A DNA stretch of 64,000 nucleotides from Dugong dugon (taxonomy: Eukaryota; Chordata; Mammalia; Sirenia; Dugongidae). Below the pieces are notes generated by a model. It had not been told where the DNA came from, searched no databases, and saw only the letters and a list, made by a program, of their open reading frames with translations. Made by a program: the position numbers and the translations under genes. Of the stretch, positions 2,605-62,349 are shown piece after piece. The stretch is taken from positions 967,501-1,031,500 of the forward strand of contig CM057465.1 of NCBI GenBank assembly GCA_030035585.1, written 5' to 3'. Each line of letters starts with the position of its first letter. The stretch's first letter is position 1.

Positions 2605-3082
2605 TATTAATTTCCTAGAAGCCTTATAAGCCACGAACTGGGTGGACTGTAAGAACAGAAATTTATTGTCTCACCATCCGGCAGGGTAGGAGTCTGAAAT
2701 AGGGTGTTGGCTGAGAGAAAATCTGTCTCATGCCTCATTCCCAACTTGTGGTGATGCCAGCGATCCTCAGTTTGTAGATGCATCACTCCAATCTCTGCCT
2801 CCACTGTCACATGGCGTCCTCCTGTGTCCATCCCCTCTTCTGATGAGGACACCAGTCATACTGCATCAGGACCCAGCTTACTCCAGTATGACCTCGTGCT
2901 AACTTAATTGATCAGGACCCAACTTAACCCCAGTACGACCTCATGTCAACTTAATTGATCAGGACCCATCTTACCCCAGTATGACCTCGTGTTAACTTAA
3001 TTAATAACATCTTCACAAGTACAGGGGTTATGACATCAACATATCTTTTTTGAGGACACAGTTCAACCCATAAAGGAGAACA
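2605..3082 (-). mobile_element. Solo LTR, MLT/MaLR-like, with internal tandem units
   Basis: Reverse orientation: starts with the 'tttcctagaagccttataa' side and ends with 'gaggacacagttcaacccat'. It contains three tandem units of 46-47 bases at 2866-3003. A diverged fossil LTR without internal genes. Confidence 0.55.
2866..3003. repeat. Three tandem 46-47 bp units inside an LTR
   Basis: The unit starting 'tgatcaggaccca' and ending 'taacttaat' is present three times with a few substitutions each. It is a local tandem expansion within the LTR at 2605-3082. Confidence 0.8.
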
Positions 3083-3084
3083 AG

Positions 3085-3581
3085 AGCAGACGCAGCTGAG
3101 AAAAAGGGTAAGAAGGAGGTCTCTTTATCCCGGGCACTTGTGGGAGAAATCTCCCAGGAAAAATAACTTCCTCAAAGTTGAACTCAAAAGCAATAATTAC
3201 AAAATATCCAAGAATGTCCCACTCCATGAAGAAGTTAGCAGACTCAACAAACGGGACAATTTACAGTGGAGAAACTAAAAGTAATTAAAATAATCAGAAA
3301 GGAATTTCACTACAAATCCATTCAAAATTTAATCTTCAAAGAGACAAAGGAAAAGTATCATCCATAAAGCAAGAAAAGAATATTAGGAGGCAAGAACAGC
3401 TGGCTAGACAGAGAACAAAGCAGAAATATTAAAAATGAAGCATACTAATTGCAATAAAAACTCAATATATTGGTAAAATAGGTTATTAAAGCCAGCTAGA
3501 GAGTATTTTTTTAATGTTAAATAAAATCAGTAAGAAAAAAATGAATAATTCAATTGTAATGAGTTATCATTTTAAGACAGG
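3085..3581 (+). mobile_element. Possible L1 fragment, A-rich
   Basis: A-rich sequence with phrases resembling L1 sense strand ('agacaaaggaaaagtatca', 'aagaatattaggagg'). No reading frame survives, and family assignment is weak. Confidence 0.3.
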
Positions 3582-21306: not shown

Positions 21307-22935
21307 ATTGCACCCAGGAAAGAGAGTGACGGGGTCCTTCCTCTTTCGGTTGCCCGTAGCAACCGCAGCATCTGTCTGGCGTCGGAGCTGAAAGCTGTCT
21401 CTCCTGAGCTGAGGCGGCAGGGGGCATGCTGGGGTCTGATAACCAGAAGCTCTGGGCCACAGGACCTGCAGGGCCCTTGCTCACCCCATGCTGCCTTGGC
21501 TCTCTGTGGCCCACCCAGCTCCCTTTTGCTGGGCGCCTCCCTGGCTGGGTGCCCTGAGAACCTCCTTCTGCACCCAGGCTCCTCCAGAGCGGACCGCCTT
21601 GCCCCCTGTGGGCCGGCAGCATCCACATGCAGGCCCCGTCTGGGGTTTGGGCTGACAGGGAGTGACGCCGCCCTGTCTGGCTCTGCTGGTCTTTCTTGCA
21701 GCCCCCTTGGCCCCTGAGAGCTGGGACCACTGGCATGGTGGGGAGGGCCAGGCTGGGCGGCAGCTGTTCCTGCTGATTTTTTCCATTTAATCCCCTTCTT
21801 GGGCTCAGGAACCTTCTGGAAATGAGGCTGGCTGCAGTGTGAAGAAGAGATAATCAAGACAAATGAGCCTCTGGAAGCAGGGATGCTGAGGGCACAACAG
21901 GTGATGTGGATGATCTCGCTTGGCTAGAATGAGGAGGCAGAGCCATCAGGGAGGTCCTGGCTGTTGTGGTGTTGGAGGCCGGGGTGGGAGGAATCACTGA
22001 TATAGGGGGTCACAGGGCTGAGGGGCCACTGACGGGTGCTGTCCAAGCCCCCTCCCTGCCTCGCTGGCTGCAGGAGGCCACTCCACCCTCCCACCCCCCA
22101 TACTTGGCACTGGTCAATTCCTGCAGGTCCCATTGTCTATTCCCCAGGGCCGGCCGCGGTTCCCGGCATGCCCCTGCTCATCCGACTTCCACTTCTGCTG
22201 CTTTCCAATCAATGAGGGGGAGGTTGCTTTCACAAGCTTGCCCCCTGCTGGCTGGGCATGAGGCTGTCCTTGAGGTGCATTGGGGTCTAGCAGGACCGGG
22301 CTATGCCAGGTGCAGAGAGCTGGGCTCTTAACGGTACACAGCATAACTATGACCTGGGGCTGTGGCACCTGCCCTTGGGGGGAGGGAGAGGCTGCTGGTG
22401 AGACCCCACGCAGGCCAAACAGCAGTCCCTCCAGAGATGGGCCCCTCATGTGTCCTGCACCCTGAATTCAGGCCCTCTCAGGGCTAGGCCATCCATGCAG
22501 AGGGAGGCTGGGTGAGCTGGGCAGAGCCTGCCCTGGACTCCCAACTTGGTGTCTTTCGGTATCTCCAGGCCTCCCCCTGACAGGGGCATCCAGCCCACAG
22601 CTGGCTGCAGATGGACGTTCTGCTGGACTGCGGTGTGGAGGAAGACTGCGGGGAAAAGGCAGTGTGGAAGAGGGAGGGGGTGTCAGGCTGAGAGAGATAT
22701 CTGAGCCAATTTCTGGTGGTAGGTGTGCTGGTGGGCATGGCAAACTCGGGGTGGTCAGCTCAGTGGAGCAGAGGATGTGGGACAGAGGGAAGGAGTGGCT
22801 GGAGTCAGCATTGTTGGAGTGAGTCGTCCATGGAGGGACAGAGCTCTAGGTTTCCACCACCAGTCTTTTCTGTCCCTCAGCCTCCTTGTTCAGACCTTGA
22901 AGAACTCAGTGCCCTGGCCCAAAGACATAGAGGCC
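21307..22935. other. GC-rich unique sequence, no gene recognised
   Basis: Several overlapping frames exist in both strands as expected for GC-rich DNA. None carries a recognisable domain or a credible start. Confidence 0.45.
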
Positions 22936-23313
22936 ACTCATTCATCCATTCATTCATCCATCTATCCATCCATCCACCCACCCATCTGTCTGTCCATCCA
23001 TCAGTCCATCCGTCTATCTTTCTATCCATCCATCCATCCAACCATTCAAACATCCATCCATCCGTCCACCCACCTACTCATCCATCCATCCACCCATCCA
23101 TCCATCCATCCATGCATCCATCCATCCATCCATCCAACCACCCATCCATCTATCCATTCATCTGTCTTTCCATCCATCCATCCACCTGTCCATCCATCCA
23201 TTCATCCATCCATCAGTCCATCCATCCGTCCATCCATCCATCCACCTGTCCATCTGTCCATCCATTCACTTGTCTGCTCATCTACCATCTGTCCATCTTG
23301 CCCACCTGCCTGC

Positions 23314-23345
<32 letters not shown>

Positions 23346-23458
23346 CCATCCATCCATCCATCCATCCATCCATTCATTTGTCCACTCATCCACCTCTCTG
23401 TCCATCTGTCCACCCAGCCACCTCCACCCATTCATCCGTCTATCCATTCATCTGTCTA
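22936..23458 (+). repeat. (ATCC)n tract, about 520 bp
   Basis: Imperfect CATC repeats with CACC, CGTC, TGTC and TTCA variants. Frames read as repeated Ser-Ile-His-Pro on the plus strand and Met-Asp-Gly-Trp on the minus strand, a repeat artefact. Confidence 0.95.
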
Positions 23459-25047
23459 GCAGACATGCCTGGAATTCCTGCCTTACCAGCTCTGAGCGCA
23501 GCACTGCTCTGTACCTTAGAGACCTCACTGGCCCACAGGGACAGAGGCAAAGGTGCACTGTTGAGCCAGCATTGGTTACTGGGCCCAGAGGAGGCCTCAC
23601 AGATGGTGAACCACATGGCTCTGCCTTCTGGATCCTGAAGCATTTCTTCATGCTGTCCACAGCCCCTCTTATCTGGTTATCTTCACCTTGGCCCTCTTTG
23701 TCTCCTGCTCCAGCCATGAGTGGAAGTATGCTCAGTGCCCAAAACTCACCAACAAACACAAAAGGGAGAACCTCAGCATCTTTTACAATCCCATCCCCCA
23801 GTGGTTAGTCCATTAATATTTTCATGTGATTCCTGAATGGAAAGAGCACGCCCTCTCATGCTCTGACCCTCCACACTGTAACCGCTTACAGCTACTTTGT
23901 TCTATTTCTAACTCAGCACTACGTAGTGGCCAGGTTCCTTGGCCAGGTGCACCTTTGACGTGCAGGATGCTCATTCCCAGGCACAGAGTCTTTCTGGAGC
24001 TCAGGGCAGAAGGCTGGGTGGGCACCGCTGGGCTGGAGACCTCAGTGTTTGGGGGTGATTGAGCTATGGGGGTGGGGGATGCCCTAGGCCAGCACAGCTC
24101 GGGGAAGGAGAGGCCACGGAGGTAGCCAGGGAGCCTGACACCCAGGCGCCCAGTGCCTTTGACTCACCATGTAGCCCCCAGCTCCTCCCACCGCCCCCTC
24201 CTAGGTGTATGGGAATTCCTCTTTTACTCCCTTCAGGCAGTTCCACCCATCACGACCTGGCTTTGGGGCCTCAGCGCTGAGTGGCACCCAGCATCCCTGT
24301 GGGTTGCCTCCATCCACCTTCCCCAAGAGCATTTTCCTTTCAAGCTTCCTATTCTCGTCCCGCTCATCTCTCTCTCAGCTGGAGACCATCCATGCAAAAG
24401 GAGGAAACAGAAGCCACGAAGAGGACTTTCTTCTCAGAGGAGGGGAGGCCAGACCCAGGGCTTCAGGGCTTGGGCTGGACGGCAAGGGTCCAGTGGGTGC
24501 AGAGGAGTCCCGAGTTCCTTTGGCAGCAGCCTGAGTGCACCCCCCGTTGGGGGACCTCGCCTAGGGCCTCCCTGGGTCCTTGGACATTCTCCCAGCTATC
24601 TGGCCCCTTGGCCCGGGCAGCATCCGCTGGGGAGCTGCCAGCAGGCCCCTGGCAAGGGGTCCAACCAGGCTCTGGTTCTTCTCAGTGCCGTGAGCAGCCG
24701 GGTGTGGGGTGGGAGCTCTGATAGATTTGGTTGTCTGCGCGTGGCTGCATTAAGATCGACGTGCAGAGTAGAGAGAATCAATGGGTGAGTGACAGGCCTG
24801 GGTTAAGGGCCATGGAGTGGAGTTTCCTGTGAAAACAAGCTTATTAATTTAAACTCTGTTGGCTCATTTTCTTGTCAAATGGGCTCCACTTAGTTATTGT
24901 GTGAATCAATGCTGGTAACTAAGCTGCACCAACACCCTCAGCAAGGTCAAACCTGCTCATAAGTAACCCACAGCTGCCCGCCAACACACCTAACAGGGCC
25001 AAACTCACCTGTTAGTAACCCACATCTCCCTGTCAACACACTTAACC
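23459..25047. other. GC-rich unique sequence, no gene recognised
   Basis: No domain was recognised. 24830-24920 is AT-rich ('ttattaatttaaactctgtt') and may be conserved non-coding DNA. Confidence 0.4.
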
Positions 25048-47949: not shown

Positions 47950-48255
47950 GAGGGCATTGGTGGTTCAGTGGTAGAATTCTTGCCTTCCATGTGGAAGACC
48001 CGGGTTTGATTCCCAGCCAATGCAGCTCATGTGCAGCCACCACCATCTGTCAGTGGAGGCTTGTGTGTTGCTATGATTCTGAACAGATTTCAGTGAAGCT
48101 TCCAGACTAAGACGGACTAAGAAGAAAAGCCGGGTGATCTGCTTCTGAAAATCACCCAATGAAAACCCCGTGGGTCACAATGGTTTCATCCACAACCAAT
48201 CATGGGGATGGCACAAGACTGGGCAGCATTTTTTCCATTGTGCAGCTAACAACAA
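47950..48255 (+). mobile_element. tRNA-Gly(GCC)-headed SINE with RTE-derived body
   Basis: 47954-48023 is an almost complete tRNA-Gly-like sequence, with A box 'tggttcagtgg', anticodon GCC and B box 'gggtttgattcc'. Then 'ttgtgtgttgctatgattct' and 'cttccagactaagacggact' match the RTE leader. The 3' portion 'catggggatggcacaagact' matches the RTE end. Not a tRNA gene, since the acceptor-equivalent runs on into the SINE body. Confidence 0.88.
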
Positions 48256-54777: not shown

Positions 54778-54783
54778 TTTATT
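54778..54783 (-). promoter_or_regulatory. Polyadenylation signal AATAAA of the ZDHHC gene
   Basis: A canonical AATAAA lies on the minus strand about 310 bases beyond the stop codon of the intronless ZDHHC gene. The stretch between (54784-55095) has no recognisable repeat and would be the 3' UTR. Just beyond the signal lies an AfroSINE (54538-54722). Confidence 0.6.
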
Positions 54784-55095: not shown

Positions 55096-55872
55096 TCAGA
55101 CCACGTCGTGGTGCTCATCCAATTTCTGAGGCTCCTGGGAGGCAAAAGGGTTGATCCAGGCCACCGAGACGTGGTGGCCAAAGACCTCCTTCAAGTTCAT
55201 CCACATGGTGCCTTTGCCCCACCTGGCCCGCTCCTTCTGTAGCAGCTCAATTCTCGTCTGGTCAGTGCAGATGGCGTGCATCTGGGTCCCGAACATCACA
55301 GAGGTGAAGATGAGGCCTTTCAGACTCACTAGGAAAAGGAAGATGAGGGAACCACGGGGCGACACGGTGCTGTTGGTGTTCCACTCGCCCCGAGCATAGT
55401 GGCGCAGGGCGGGGACGCCAAGCAACAACAGCACGTGCAGCGCTGCCAGGGCGATGTAGAGCGTGAAGAGCACGAAGTACTTCTGGTTGTCCTCGCCCAC
55501 ACAATTGTTGATCCAGGGGCAATGGTGGTCCATCTTGCGGATGCAGCGCCCGCACACGCTGCAATGGTGGGCTCGCGCGGGCCTGGCGCCACCGCAGCGC
55601 TGGCAGCGGGCAGCTCCGGGCCTGGGCGGTTCGCTCAAGGGCACCGAGCCGGGGTCGGTGAGCATGGCGCGCGCGTGCGACGCTAGCCCCAGGAAGGCCA
55701 GCAGGTGGAAGAGCGCGCCGTTGGCTGCGGCGTAGGCCAAGTCTGGCGAAGGGATGAGGAGCTCGGAGAGCAGCGCGCTCGCGGCGCCCAGCACCAGCCC
55801 CCAGGTGCTAGCGGCGCACACGATGCCCAGCGCATCGCATACGAACCAGACTCGGCTGCGGCCCTGGCACAT
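55096..55872 (-). CDS. ZDHHC25: Intronless DHHC palmitoyltransferase, ZDHHC25-like (ZDHHC3/7 subfamily)
   Basis: A single open frame of 258 codons encodes a complete DHHC protein S-acyltransferase, an enzyme that transfers palmitate from palmitoyl-CoA to protein cysteines, usually at Golgi membranes in this subfamily. Likely membrane spans are residues 15-38, 45-65, 132-153 and 173-197. A DPG motif is at 73-75. The cysteine-rich domain has C90, C93, H103, C104, C107 and C110, then the catalytic DHHC at 115-118, then C124, N129 and F133. A TRIE (206-209) stands where the family has TTxE, and NPF is at 241-243. The tail ends in DVV, compared with YVV in ZDHHC3. From memory it closely matches ZDHHC3 across the core, but lacks the long N-terminal leader, is about 11 residues shorter between DPG and the first zinc cysteine, and lacks about 3 residues in the last span. 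No intron interrupts a domain that is split in ZDHHC3, so it looks like a retrocopy. The start is the first in-frame ATG. The family call is firm; the ZDHHC25 symbol is likely but not proven. Confidence 0.87.
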   Translation of the reverse strand: MCQGRSRVWFVCDALGIVCAASTWGLVLGAASALLSELLIPSPDLAYAAANGALFHLLAFLGLASHARAMLTDPGSVPLSEPPRPGAARCQRCGGARPARAHHCSVCGRCIRKMDHHCPWINNCVGEDNQKYFVLFTLYIALAALHVLLLLGVPALRHYARGEWNTNSTVSPRGSLIFLFLVSLKGLIFTSVMFGTQMHAICTDQTRIELLQKERARWGKGTMWMNLKEVFGHHVSVAWINPFASQEPQKLDEHHDVV

Positions 55873-56130
55873 TGACGGGGCGCGGCGGGAACTCGAGTGT
55901 CCTCTCAAGGGCCCAGTGGGCAGGGACGCTCACGGGCATGGCAGGGCACCCTCAGGCATCCTCGCGGCGCGAGCTGCCTGGGGGAGGGCTGCAGGGGAGG
56001 GGCGCCAGCGGAGGAGGGAGAGGTCCTTTGGCCGCCGCCCGCCTCCTCCCGGCCTGGGCAGCACACTCCCGGCCGGGGCCCTGGGCAGAGCGCAGGGGTG
56101 GTGGCCGTGGCAGCTTTGGTCCTCACCTAC
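55380..56130 (-). promoter_or_regulatory. CpG-rich island over the 5' half and upstream of the ZDHHC gene
   Basis: CpG dinucleotides are frequent from about 55380 to 56130, unlike the AT-rich repeats on the left. The block covers the N-terminal half of the coding frame and about 250 bases upstream, where a promoter would lie. GC-box-like runs such as GGGGAGGGGC occur near 55983-56003. No TATA box is evident. The CpG content is seen directly; promoter activity is inferred. Confidence 0.5.
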
Positions 56131-57685
56131 GGAACTGGAAGTCAGCCCCTTTCTAAGTTCTAGAATGTGCCTTGATGGCGGGGGGTTTGTGAACACAGAA
56201 AGGGGAACCCCTGGGGTCCGCCCAGCCCGGCCCCTTCCCAGCAAGTGAGTTTTCCGTTTTGGGCGAGGCCACAGCCTGGGCCGCAGGAAGGGGGCAGATG
56301 ATACTGTGATGTCGCACACGGTCTCTTTAGGACTTGCTCAGAAAGATGGGGTCAGGGGCGGAACCCGTGATGCCTTCTGGGTGCAAGGCCCAGTGCCTCT
56401 CCACGAGTCAGCTCATTCAGTCCTCACAAAGGCCCCGCCAGATACAGACTCATACTGGCCCCGTTTTCCAGATGGAGAAACTGAGGTATGGGGAAGCTAA
56501 GTAAATTGTCCGAGGCCGCAAGCCTGTGAGTGACAGGTCGGGCGTCCACCCTGTAGTGTGATCAGAGCTGGGCTGTTGCCGCTGCCCTGCACCTGGAGGA
56601 GGGCTGCATAAGATGGACGTGGTAGGGGTGGGGGGGTGTCTCAGGCCAGGGCGGCAGGTCTCTGTGCATAGCTGGGGACGTCAAGGCCAGCGTGAAAATG
56701 TCAACATTCTGAGCAAAGGGCTGCTCTAGTGTTCATCTAAGGTATGGATCATTGGTGAAGCAGCCGCGGAGTCTAACACTCAGGTGCAAGGATGCTGACC
56801 ACACAAGGACGGGGGAGGTGGCCTAGCTCAGCCTGCTGCTCACTGTGAGCTGCAATGACCGTGCCACTGGCAATAAAGTGAGCGTATTCCCTGGTCGTAT
56901 TAATGGGAGCACGTTCTGTGGAGTTAAGGAGGGGACAGTGCCCTACTGTGTTATCCTGAGAAACCTATCTGGGCGAGGGGCTTGCAGGGCAGAGTGGCTC
57001 AGAAACAAGTCAACTGAGGAAGTTTTTGGGGAGCCGGGGAAGATACCCTGAAAGGAGGACTCAGTGCCCTCTCTGGCTGGAGGCAGGAGTGCGTGTGTTT
57101 GCTTCAGTTCCCTAGGGTGGGAGGATGGCCACAGGGGAGGGTCAGAGAGAGGGTCCGGGCTCCATTCAGGGTGGGGAGGGGCTGCAGGCAGGACGTTCTC
57201 AGACAAGAGGGTTGACGTCTAGAGCAGGGGTTGCTCCAGGAATGAGCTCAGTGAGCCTGGGGCGTCCTAAAGACCCCTCAATCTTCATGGAGCCCCACAT
57301 TGCAGCAGTGTGTCAGATTAACCAGAAAAGAAGGCATGTGGAGACCCACTCTCACTGGTTCCCTAAGGGGTGTATCTGGGACCCAGAGCTGGTGTGCTGG
57401 GGAGTGGGATGGGATCAAGAGGGGCTGCTGCACCCTTCTGGGTGTTCTTTTTTGGGTTTCAACTTTGACAACGAGCCGTGTGACCTCCCTCCTGCCAGGA
57501 AGGGCCTAGTTGTCACTTTGCCCCCTTTCTTGTGTGAGGAGGTACTTCTGTGCCGCCACCCTTGGCCACGCCTCCCGCAGCGTCCCAGATCAGAGCAGCT
57601 GATGGCCGCAGACACTGGGGTCAGTGTACGGGGCATCGGTGTCTCCTGGTTTCATCAGGATGTGCCAGTGAATCCCCCCACAGTA
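56131..57685. other. Unique sequence with a MIR remnant at 56395-56560
   Basis: 'cagatggagaaactgaggta' near 56470 is typical of MIR. Downstream frames (such as the 196-codon frame from 57125) lack domains and are not called. Confidence 0.5.
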
Positions 57686-59389: not shown

Positions 59390-59765
59390 ATCAGCACTAA
59401 TTGTTTTGCTTCTTTCCTTGATTTTCTCTAGTTTGCAAGGTATGTATCACTTGCAAATATTTACAGTTGAGTTTTCTTTTATGGATTGTTGCTTTGACTA
59501 CAACTTCTAAAAGAATGTTAAATCATCGAAGTGATGGGGGGATTGTCAGTCTCAAGTTTAATAGGGATTTTCTTCATTATATCTGAGGTAGCCGAGTAGT
59601 TGATAAGCATTATTTATTATGAAAAGGGAATGTTCTTTTATTCCTAGATTATCTTTTACAAAATGTTCCCTCCGTTTTCTCCACCAGGGAATGTTATTTT
59701 ACCCAATAGCTTTTATAAATCTGTTTAAAGTGTCATACTAACGAGCTCAGCAGACCTTAGCCTAG
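59390..59765 (-). mobile_element. L1 ORF2 fragment, antisense
   Basis: 'cttctaaaagaatgttaaat' and 'ttcttttattcctagattat' match the reverse complement of L1 ORF2. It ends at the polypyrimidine tract. Confidence 0.5.
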
Positions 59766-59770
59766 TGCAG

Positions 59771-62286
59771 TCTTCTTCCTCCCTCCCTCCGTTCCTCCCT
59801 CCTTCCTCCCCTTCCTCCCTCCTTCCTCCCCTTCCTCCCACCTTCCTCCCCTTCCTCCCTCCTTCCCTTCCTTCCTCCCTTCTTCCTCCCCTTCCTCCCT
59901 CCTTCCTTCCCTTCCTCCCTCCTTCCTCCCTCCTTCCTCCCCTTCCTCCCTCCTTCCCTCCCTTCCTCCCTCCTTCCTTCCCTTCCTCCCTCCTTCCTCC
60001 TCTTTCTCCCTCCTTCCTTCCCTTCCTCCCTCCTTCCTTCCCTTCCTCCCTCCTTCCCTCCCTTCCTCCCTCCTTCCTCCCCTTCCTCCCCTTCCTCCCT
60101 CCTTCCTTCCCTTCCTCCTCTTCCTCCCTCCTTCCTCCCCTTCCTCCCTCCTTCCCTCCCTTCCTCCCTCCTTCCTCCCCTTCCTCCCCTTCCTCCCTCC
60201 TTCCTTCCCTTCCTCCTCTTCCTCCCTCCTTCCTCCCCTTCCTCCCCTTCCTCCCTCCTTCCTCCCCTTCCTCCCCTTCCTCCCTCCTTCCTCCCCTTCC
60301 TCCCTCCTTCCTTCCTTCCCTTCCTCACTCCTTCCTCCCCTTCCTCCCTTCTTCTTTCCCTTCCTCCCTCCTTCTCTCCCTCCTTCCTTCCCTTCCTCTC
60401 TTCTTCCTTCCCATCCTCACTCCTTCCTCCCCTTCCTCCTTCCTCCCCTTCCTCCTTCCTTCCCTTCCTCCCTTCTTCCCTCCCTTCCTCCCTCCTTCCT
60501 CCTCTTCCTCCCTCCTTCCTTCCCTTCCTCCCTCCTTCTTCCCCTTCCTCCCTTTTTCCTCCCCTTCCTCCCTCCTTCCTTCCCTTCCTCCCTCCCTCCT
60601 TCCATTCCTCCCTCCTTCCTTCCCTTCCTCCCTTCTTCCCTCCCTTCCTCCCTCCTTCCTCCTCTTCCTCCCTCCTTCCTTCCCTTCCTCCCTCCTTCTT
60701 CCCCTTCCTCCCTTCTTCCTCCCCTTCCTCCCTCCTTCCCTTCCTCCCTCCTTCCTCCCCTTCCTCCCTCCTTCCTTCCATTCCTCCCTCCTTCCTTCCC
60801 TTCCTCCCTTCTTCCTCCCCTTCCTCCCTCCTTCCCTTCCTCCCTCCTTCCTTCCCTTCCTCCCTCCCTCCTTCCATTCCTCCCTCCTTCCTTCCCTTCC
60901 TCCCTTCTTCCCTCCCTTCCTCCCTCCTTCCTCCTCTTCCTCCCTCCTTCCTTCCCTTCCTCCCTCCTTTTTCCCCTTCCTCCCTTCTTCCTCCCCTTCC
61001 TCCCTCCTTCCCTTCCTCCCTCCTTCCTCCCCTTCCTCCCTCCTTCCTTCCATTCCTCCCTCCTTCCTTCCCTTCCTCCCTTCTTCCTCCCCTTCCTCCC
61101 TCCTTCCCTTCCTCCCTCCTTCCTTCCCTTCCTCCCTCCCTCCTTCCCTCCCTCCCTCCTTCCCTCCCTTCCTCCCTCCTTCCTCCCCTTCCTCCCTCCT
61201 TCCTCCCCTTCCTCCCTCCTTCCTTCCCTTCCTCCCTCCTTCCTCCCCTTCCTCCCTCCTTCCTCCCCTTCCTCCCTCCTTCCTTCCTTCCCTTCCTCAC
61301 TCCTTCCTCCCCTTCCTCCTTCCTTCCCTTCCTCCCTCCTTCCCTCCCTTCCTCCCTCCTTCCTTCCCTTCCTCCTTCCTCCCCTTCCTCCCTTCTTCCT
61401 CCCCTCCCTTCCTCCCTCCTTCCCTCCCTTTCTCCCTCCTTCCTCCTTCCTCCTTCCTTCCTCCCTTCCTCCTTCCTTCCTTCCTCCCTCCCTCCCTCTT
61501 CCCTCCCTCCTTCCCTCCCTTTCTCCCTCCTTCCTTCCCTTCATCCCTTCTTCCTTCCCTTTCTCCCTCCTTCCTTCCCTTCCTCCCTCCTTCCTTCCCT
61601 TCCTCCCTCCTTCCTTCCCTTCCTCCTTTCTTCCTTCCCTTTCTCCCTCCTTCCTTCCCTTCCTCCCTCCTTCCCTCCCTTTCTCCCTCCTTCCTTCCCT
61701 TCATCCCTTCTTCCTTCCCTTTCTCCCTCCTTCCTTCCCTTCCTCCCTCCTTCCTTCCCTTCCTCCCTCCTTCCTCCCCTTCCTCCCTCCTTCCTTCCCT
61801 TCCTCCTTTCTTCCTTCCCTTTCTCCCTCCTTCCTTCCCTTCCTCCCTTCTTCCTCCCCTTCCTCCCTCCCTTCTTCCCTCCTTCCCTCCCTTCCTCCCT
61901 TCTTCCTTCCCTTTCTCCCTCCTTCCTTGCCTTTCTCTTTTCTTCCTCCCCTTCCTCCCTCCTTCCTTCCCTTCCTCCCTCCTTCCTTCCCTTCCTCCCT
62001 CCTTCCTTCCCTTCCTCCCTCCTTCCTTCCCTTTTTCTCTCCTTCCTTCCCTTTCTCTCTCCTTCCTTCCCTTCCTCCCTCCTTCTCTCCCTCCTTCCTT
62101 CCCTTTCTCTCTCCTTCCTTCCCTTTCTCTCTCCTTCCTTCCCTTTCTCTCTCTTTCCTTCCCTTCCTCCCTCCTTCCTTCCCTTCCTCCCTTCTTCTTT
62201 CCCTTCCTCCCTCCTTCTCTCCCTCCTTGCTTCCCTTCCTCTCTTCTTCCTTCCCGTCCTCCCTCCTTCCTTCCCTTCCTCCCTCT
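59771..62286 (+). repeat. Polypyrimidine/polypurine tract, about 2.5 kb
   Basis: Nearly uninterrupted C/T on the plus strand, with a local period near 19-20 bases ('ttcctccctccttccttccc'). The long frames across it (Pro/Ser/Phe/Leu on plus; Gly/Arg/Glu/Lys on minus) come from the absence of stops in such sequence and are not genes. Confidence 0.97.
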
Positions 62287-62349
62287 GCCGCTCTCTGCTC
62301 TCCCTTCCTCCATCCCTCACTTCAATTTTCCTCTCTGCTTTCTTTAGCT

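Follow-up and report, generated by a model that had tools for sequence, protein, structure and literature searches.

The window analysed here, a stretch of 64,000 nt of the dugong genome (Dugong dugon, contig CM057465.1, positions 967,501 to 1,031,500), was found to carry on its minus strand an open frame of 258 codons at 55096-55872, with the start ATG at 55872, the stop TGA at 55098-55096 and no internal stop. An earlier note, made from the letters alone, had claimed an uninterrupted frame of this length, and it was recovered at exactly these positions. The frame represents a coding sequence contained in one exon, with 258 codons and the TGA, for a DHHC palmitoyltransferase of the ZDHHC3/7 group, the probable orthologue of rodent Zdhhc25. 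The Kozak context of its start codon is weak (TCA ATG T), and the codon is preceded by an open stretch of 19 codons (55873-55929, minus strand), the last 18 of which read SLPTGPLRGHSSSRRAPS. This stretch, into which the match to exon 1 of ZDHHC7 from the dugong genome extends for 9 codons, is possibly a remnant of a longer parental N terminus.

A search of Pfam matched the DHHC family (PF01529) to residues 90-213 of the predicted protein with an E-value of 2.2e-37, while NCBIfam searched with the protein gave no match. The DHHC cysteine-rich domain (residues 90-140; 55453-55605, minus strand) is identical to that of ZDHHC3 at 40 of 51 positions and includes the DHHC motif itself (residues 115-118; 55519-55530, minus strand), in which C118 is the catalytic residue according to DHHC enzymology. 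The zinc-site Cys and His residues and the DHHC cysteine form a complete set (C90, C93, H103, C104, C107, C110, H117, C118 and C124), as had been claimed, and the zinc and catalytic residues align with those of solved chains of human DHHC20; the allocation of individual ligands to one or the other zinc is our assumption. The matches to solved structures amounted to eight distinct sequences, namely human DHHC20 (four), one named only Palmitoyltransferase, ZDHHC9, ZDHHC5 and ERF2. Near the C terminus, residues 241-243 are NPF (55144-55152, minus strand), in an asparagine region of what we take to be the PaCCT type. A single-sequence AlphaFold model placed helices at residues 7-39, 43-72, 128-160 and 172-218, and these four long helices are arranged about the DHHC domain as expected; with a mean pLDDT of only 52 the model carries little weight and is too weak for a structure search. 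In DHHC enzymes, the fatty acid of an acyl-CoA is loaded onto the DHHC cysteine and then handed to substrate cysteines. The protein would cross the Golgi membrane four times, and C118 would take a fatty acid from acyl-CoA and hand it to substrate cysteines on the cytosolic side of the membrane, the Golgi being the probable site. The C-terminal tail is QKLDEHHDVV (55099-55128, minus strand). In the relevant passages of PMC6365469, ZDHHC3 and ZDHHC7 are placed at the Golgi and the C terminus of ZDHHC3 is described as a PDZ ligand; by analogy, the VV end of the tail is possibly a PDZ ligand too, and the terminal DVV may recruit PDZ partners.

A protein search of the whole dugong assembly (3.16 Gb) returned 41 matches. 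By comparison with the human proteins, two genes divided into exons were recognised, ZDHHC7 on C21 and ZDHHC3 on C24; the human ZDHHC3 and ZDHHC7 proteins and the ZDHHC21 protein that served as references are sequences supplied by us. The coding sequence of ZDHHC7 was found in six pieces, some stretches of these regions read as N, and some exons of ZDHHC3 were not found in the genome search. Against these split genes of the same genome, the uninterrupted frame at 55096-55872 is intronless. Two other intronless copies are processed pseudogenes. That of ZDHHC3 (C6:148262998-148263555), recovered in its 3' part alone, is 83% identical to its parent over 184 residues, has GHHY in place of DHHC and contains one stop near its end, while that of ZDHHC7 (C25:3807603-3808675) contains stops and frame breaks. 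Both differ from the gene of the window in being decayed, poor in CpG and closer to their parents, and the C6 copy also in its lack of a constraint pattern. Grouping with recent ZDHHC3 pseudogenes, which the earlier note had named as evidence against its reading, was not seen, and the frame stands apart from the C6 copy, the only pseudogene in the tree.

The CpG-rich 5' end that had been claimed corresponds to the sole CpG island of the window, which extends over the gene's 5' part and the region upstream (55201-56200). Of 636 windows, each 400 nt long, only 7 reached a GC content of at least 0.55 together with a CpG observed/expected ratio of at least 0.65, and all 7 lie over the frame and its upstream edge; the median ratio across the 64,000 nt is 0.27, and the C6 and C25 pseudogenes have 0.16 and 0.23. 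Since CpGs persist in DNA that is unmethylated in the germline, the island suggests a promoter active there. Judged by this retention of CpGs, it is probably a germline-unmethylated promoter, and it is compatible with expression in the testis. On the other side of the gene, the nearby AATAAA polyadenylation signal mentioned earlier was found at 54778-54783 (minus strand), 312 nt past the stop and just ahead of repeat DNA. The SINE-like repeats beside the gene, presumably of the afrothere type, in agreement with the afrothere origin named in the earlier note, also occur in other regions of the same genome. Over roughly the first 300 nt past the stop, the 3' flank gave no strong match to the ZDHHC3 and ZDHHC7 regions of the genome; the best one, 51 nt at 76% identity (E 0.008) in the same orientation, falls on C24, some 1.4 kb past what is probably the last exon of ZDHHC3, and is a weak hint of a remnant of the ZDHHC3 3' UTR. 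Over 1 kb upstream of the gene no match to the same regions was obtained at E<0.1, and neither a poly(A) tract nor a convincing target-site duplication was recognised around the gene.

The many differences from ZDHHC3 that had been announced are real, the protein being identical to human ZDHHC3 at 143 of 257 aligned residues (56%) and to ZDHHC7 at 121 of 257 (47%). On these alignments the gene belongs to the ZDHHC3/ZDHHC7 group. Where the two human proteins differ, it agrees with ZDHHC3 in 30 columns, with ZDHHC7 in 8 and with neither in 53. With ZDHHC3 (GODZ) it also has the VV end in common, but ZDHHC3 is interrupted by introns, starts with a longer N terminus, ends in the tail DPYQYVV, and contains an 11-residue loop and three TM4 residues missing from the gene. 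ZDHHC7 shares RVWF, RGxW and NPF with the gene, and differs from it in its several exons, its C-terminal tail and the low number of matching diagnostic columns. In a tree rooted with ZDHHC21, the best topology put the gene outside ZDHHC3 plus ZDHHC7 (bootstrap 83), and the AU test rejected neither the placement with ZDHHC3 (p 0.19) nor that with ZDHHC7 (p 0.13). The branch to ZDHHC21, the sole other DHHC protein in the tree, is far longer than that to ZDHHC3/7, and the outside position is likely due to long-branch attraction to this distant outgroup. The origin from ZDHHC3 proposed earlier thus finds support in the diagnostic columns, while the tree does not settle the parent; ZDHHC3 is favoured here by preference and not by proof, as shared ancestral states could give the same columns.

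The lack of any stop or frameshift had been taken as an argument for selection, and this lack is indeed observed. Openness by itself is weak evidence, since in neutral simulations at 0.3 substitutions per site, run with substitutions and no indels, 258 codons stayed free of stops in 22, 57 and 151 of 2000 runs at GC 0.6, 0.7 and 0.8, respectively, and the window contains 19 further ATG frames, between 132 and 375 aa long, 10 of which were scanned against Pfam and gave no match. Stop-free length was accordingly dropped as evidence standing on its own, and the frame is regarded as more than chance because of its homology and constraint. Constraint was disclosed by the pattern of retained residues: from RVWF on, the residue of ZDHHC3 is retained in 113 of the 166 columns that are the same in ZDHHC3 and ZDHHC7, compared with 30 of the 85 that are not (Fisher p 9.7e-7). 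The same test on the C6 pseudogene gave 103 of 124 against 50 of 63 (p 0.55), which is flat, as expected of a neutral copy. Relative to ZDHHC3, the aligned core has changed in length at three places, by 11, 1 and 3 codons, each time without a shift of frame.

Silent sites are saturated, the NG86 dS being 2.2 against ZDHHC3 and undefined against ZDHHC7 (0.33-0.46 for the C6 copy), and codon likelihood models were used for this reason in place of YN00 and LWL85 as implemented in Biopython. A four-taxon branch model allowing a GC shift gave an omega of 0.069 for the gene, with a lnL of -2284.8; fixing omega at 1 lowered this to -2308.2 and fixing it at 0.5 to -2300.0, 0.5 being the value expected if the parent alone were constrained. 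The branch length of ZDHHC7 in this model ran to its bound (15) and is meaningless. For the C6 pseudogene the free omega was 0.35, and fixing it at 1 cost only 1.1 lnL units. In pairwise models, which take the reference as ancestor, omega 0.5 lost 18.8 lnL units against ZDHHC3 (103 codons), 18.8 against the C6 copy (178 codons) and 31.6 against ZDHHC7 (232 codons). Sites were also counted at which ZDHHC7 equals ZDHHC3, or equals the C6 copy in stretches lacking ZDHHC3. Of these, 53 of 236 0-fold positions have changed as against 9 of 14 4-fold positions (p 0.0015); with ZDHHC3 alone as reference the numbers were 35 of 150 and 5 of 8 (p 0.025). The C6 control, with 14 of 153 and 2 of 6, is not perfectly flat, and this, together with its free omega of 0.35, makes it an imperfect neutral control. 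Saturation makes omega and age rough, while the direction is consistent throughout. Thus, by these codon comparisons, the protein is under purifying constraint, with omega about 0.07 and both 0.5 and 1 rejected. A dN/dS near 1, which the earlier note had also named as evidence against its reading, was not found, the value being well below 1 and also below 0.5, and the earlier view of a retrocopy long kept by selection is supported by residue retention and codon models alike.

As for the position of the gene, it lies at C7:1022599, between an exon at C7:839975 with a Pfam EPL1 match and exons at C7:2514368 and C7:2581984 with TAFA family matches. These neighbours, read as proteins after the family matches, we take to be BRD1 and TAFA5, and for mouse Zdhhc25 we likewise assume a place in the Tafa5-Brd1 interval of chromosome 15. 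Table 1 of PMC3428356 lists mouse Zdhhc25 on chromosome 15 as a single-exon gene specific to spermatogenic cells, one of 39 single-exon genes detected by RT-PCR only in wild-type testis; the rat orthologue LOC300323 is given at 83% and mouse Zdhhc7 as the listed paralogue at 41%, with no human entry. The human column for Zdhhc25 is likewise empty in the table of PMC6365469. In a passage of PMC8848662, a block at 22q13.33 is placed in an apparent gene desert whose nearest annotated coding genes are FAM19A5 (TAFA5) and BRD1, which is consistent with loss of the gene in human.

Comparison with the rodent sequence was made at two 20-nt primer sites and through the spacing between them. The RT-PCR primers printed for mouse Zdhhc25 in PMC2607547 translate, in the fitting frame, into SHLRTM (forward) and KVSEHH (reverse complement). 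Near the C terminus, KVSEHH of the mouse primer corresponds to KLDEHHDVV in the gene of the window and to KADPYQYVV in ZDHHC3. The spacing of the sites was 577 nt in mouse Zdhhc25, 574 in the gene, 613 in ZDHHC3 and 631 in ZDHHC7, so that the gene is within one codon of the mouse core and ZDHHC3 is 12-13 codons longer than both. The mouse figure assumes that the authors print size minus one (576 for Zdhhc25), as their sizes for Zdhhc3 and Zdhhc7 are one below those computed from the human proteins (527 for 528 and 662 for 663). At the reverse site, primer and gene have 15 of 20 bases in common, compared with 13 of 20 for the forward site. At the latter, mouse SHLRTM is the ZDHHC7 form, whereas the gene has SHARAM and ZDHHC3 has SHCRAM, so that no derived residue is held in common; indeed, dugong ZDHHC7 matches the forward primer slightly better than the gene does (15 of 20). 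A second pair of mouse Zdhhc25 primers, printed in PMC4862184, found no placement on the gene when compared by eye from translations. Rodent Zdhhc25 (mouse NM_027306, Q810M4, DHHC-23 in the numbering of Fukata; rat LOC300323) therefore resembles the gene in its single exon, its relationship to ZDHHC3/7 and K-x-x-E-H-H near the C terminus, and differs in the forward stretch and in being known from rodents, while the gene is in a non-rodent genome. The fit to rodent ZDHHC25 suggested in the earlier note is thus supported both by the BRD1-TAFA5 position and by the mouse primers and amplicon size, and the gene is most likely the orthologue of Zdhhc25, on the basis of position (its mouse side assumed), primer sites and spacing. 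In the accessible text of the open literature naming Zdhhc25, no copy was found in a named non-rodent mammal, genome databases possibly holding automatic annotations, and a fish paper (PMC11167447) loosely mentions zDHHC25 in mammals. No open-literature paper was found on a testis retrogene of ZDHHC3 or on Zdhhc25 together with Brd1.

A processed pseudogene kept open by the chance of its GC-richness would be in line with the weak Kozak context and with the 22-151 of 2000 simulated copies that remained free of stops under substitutions alone. We give this reading hardly any chance, as the retention of residues follows the constraint on ZDHHC3/7 (p about 1e-6), unlike in the C6 pseudogene, and omega values of 1 and 0.5 are rejected; moreover, at 83% identity to ZDHHC3 over 184 residues the C6 copy already has GHHY and a stop, while the copy in the window is 56% identical yet intact. 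A functional ZDHHC3 retrogene born independently in the dugong lineage, and not orthologous to rodent Zdhhc25, is unlikely. Retrocopies of ZDHHC3 and ZDHHC7 did arise separately in the same genome (C6 and C25), and the mouse forward primer, in a comparison limited to the primer sites, is ZDHHC7-like. Recent birth sits poorly with silent sites that are saturated (an NG86 dS of 2.2, where the C6 copy has 0.33-0.46), and a separate one with an insertion into the same BRD1-TAFA5 interval as assumed for mouse Zdhhc25 (chromosome 15 in Table 1 of PMC3428356), with EHH in common and with a near-equal length 12-13 codons below that of ZDHHC3.

The best, non-significant topology with the ZDHHC21 outgroup would allow the lineage to predate the split of ZDHHC3 and ZDHHC7, Zdhhc25 then being a third ancient member of the subgroup, surviving intronless in a few mammalian orders and lost elsewhere, including in humans; this we hold to be very unlikely. 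A different matter is whether the constrained protein acts as an enzyme, since it could be catalytically weak or inactive, binding substrates or partners and dampening acylation. Passages of PMC11870023 report that mouse zDHHC25 was expressed and remained unlabelled by NBD-palmitoyl-CoA, and in PMC4239634 it seemed to lower the membrane association of NMNAT2, the authors also citing reduced labelling of PDE10A. However, the zinc ligands, the DHHC cysteine and NPF are all kept in the gene of the window, and the authors of PMC11870023 suggest that the missing label could also be due to an acyl-CoA pocket that is more restrictive; an inactive or inhibitory protein is a possible but less likely reading.

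In our judgement, it is quite probable that the gene is a functional ancient retrogene and the orthologue of rodent Zdhhc25, copied from a ZDHHC3-type mRNA into the interval between BRD1 and TAFA5 before the rodents split off, and served by a CpG-island promoter of its own. A ZDHHC3-type mRNA would have been reverse-transcribed and inserted there before the rodent and dugong lineages separated, the retrocopy would have gained its promoter, and the human lineage would later have lost the gene. By extension from mouse Zdhhc25, it would be transcribed in male germ cells. The gene is of a known kind, and what is new is its phylogenetic reach. In the tables of PMC3428356 and PMC6365469, Zdhhc25 is a mouse gene without human counterpart, and the literature consulted places it in mouse and rat; the present data suggest a gene as old as the placental mammals and lost on the way to humans. 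If the gene is a true orthologue in an afrothere, its origin dates to the placental common ancestor, and its absence in human is a loss and not a gain in rodents. The role of Zdhhc25 could then be tested by comparing mammals with and without the gene, and palmitoylation screens with the mouse set would include an enzyme once present in the human lineage and then dropped by it.

Last, some minor observations were made in the window and in the searches. A long low-complexity stretch of CTTCCTCC-type units at 59762-62313, of which the tandem-repeat scan reached only position 60000, opens meaningless minus-strand frames of up to 375 aa, and a 240-aa frame of IHPS-type repeats at 22737-23459 (plus strand) is a translated tandem repeat and no gene. 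A tRNA-Gly(TCC) at 47954-48024 (plus strand) was called by both ARAGORN and Rfam (46.3 bits), and is either a working gene or derived from a repeat. Viral contigs scanned with the protein gave no match, and a scan of genome contigs gave a single one, filed as a Verrucomicrobiaceae MAG (L044), with a DHHC stretch at 3001-3216 that shares 53% of its residues with positions 81-151 of the protein; as DHHC proteins belong to eukaryotes, contamination or transfer is possible. In the dugong assembly, 18 of the 41 DHHC-like matches fall within 1.5 Mb at C10:17.10-18.63 Mb (L012, L014-L018 and L020), where seven 3.1-kb loci that were compared are 98.4-99.6% identical. Two of them (L015 and L018) have a plus-strand translation which we take to be ZDHHC1/11-like, and on this comparison the cluster would be the product of a gene of this type amplified locally and recently.
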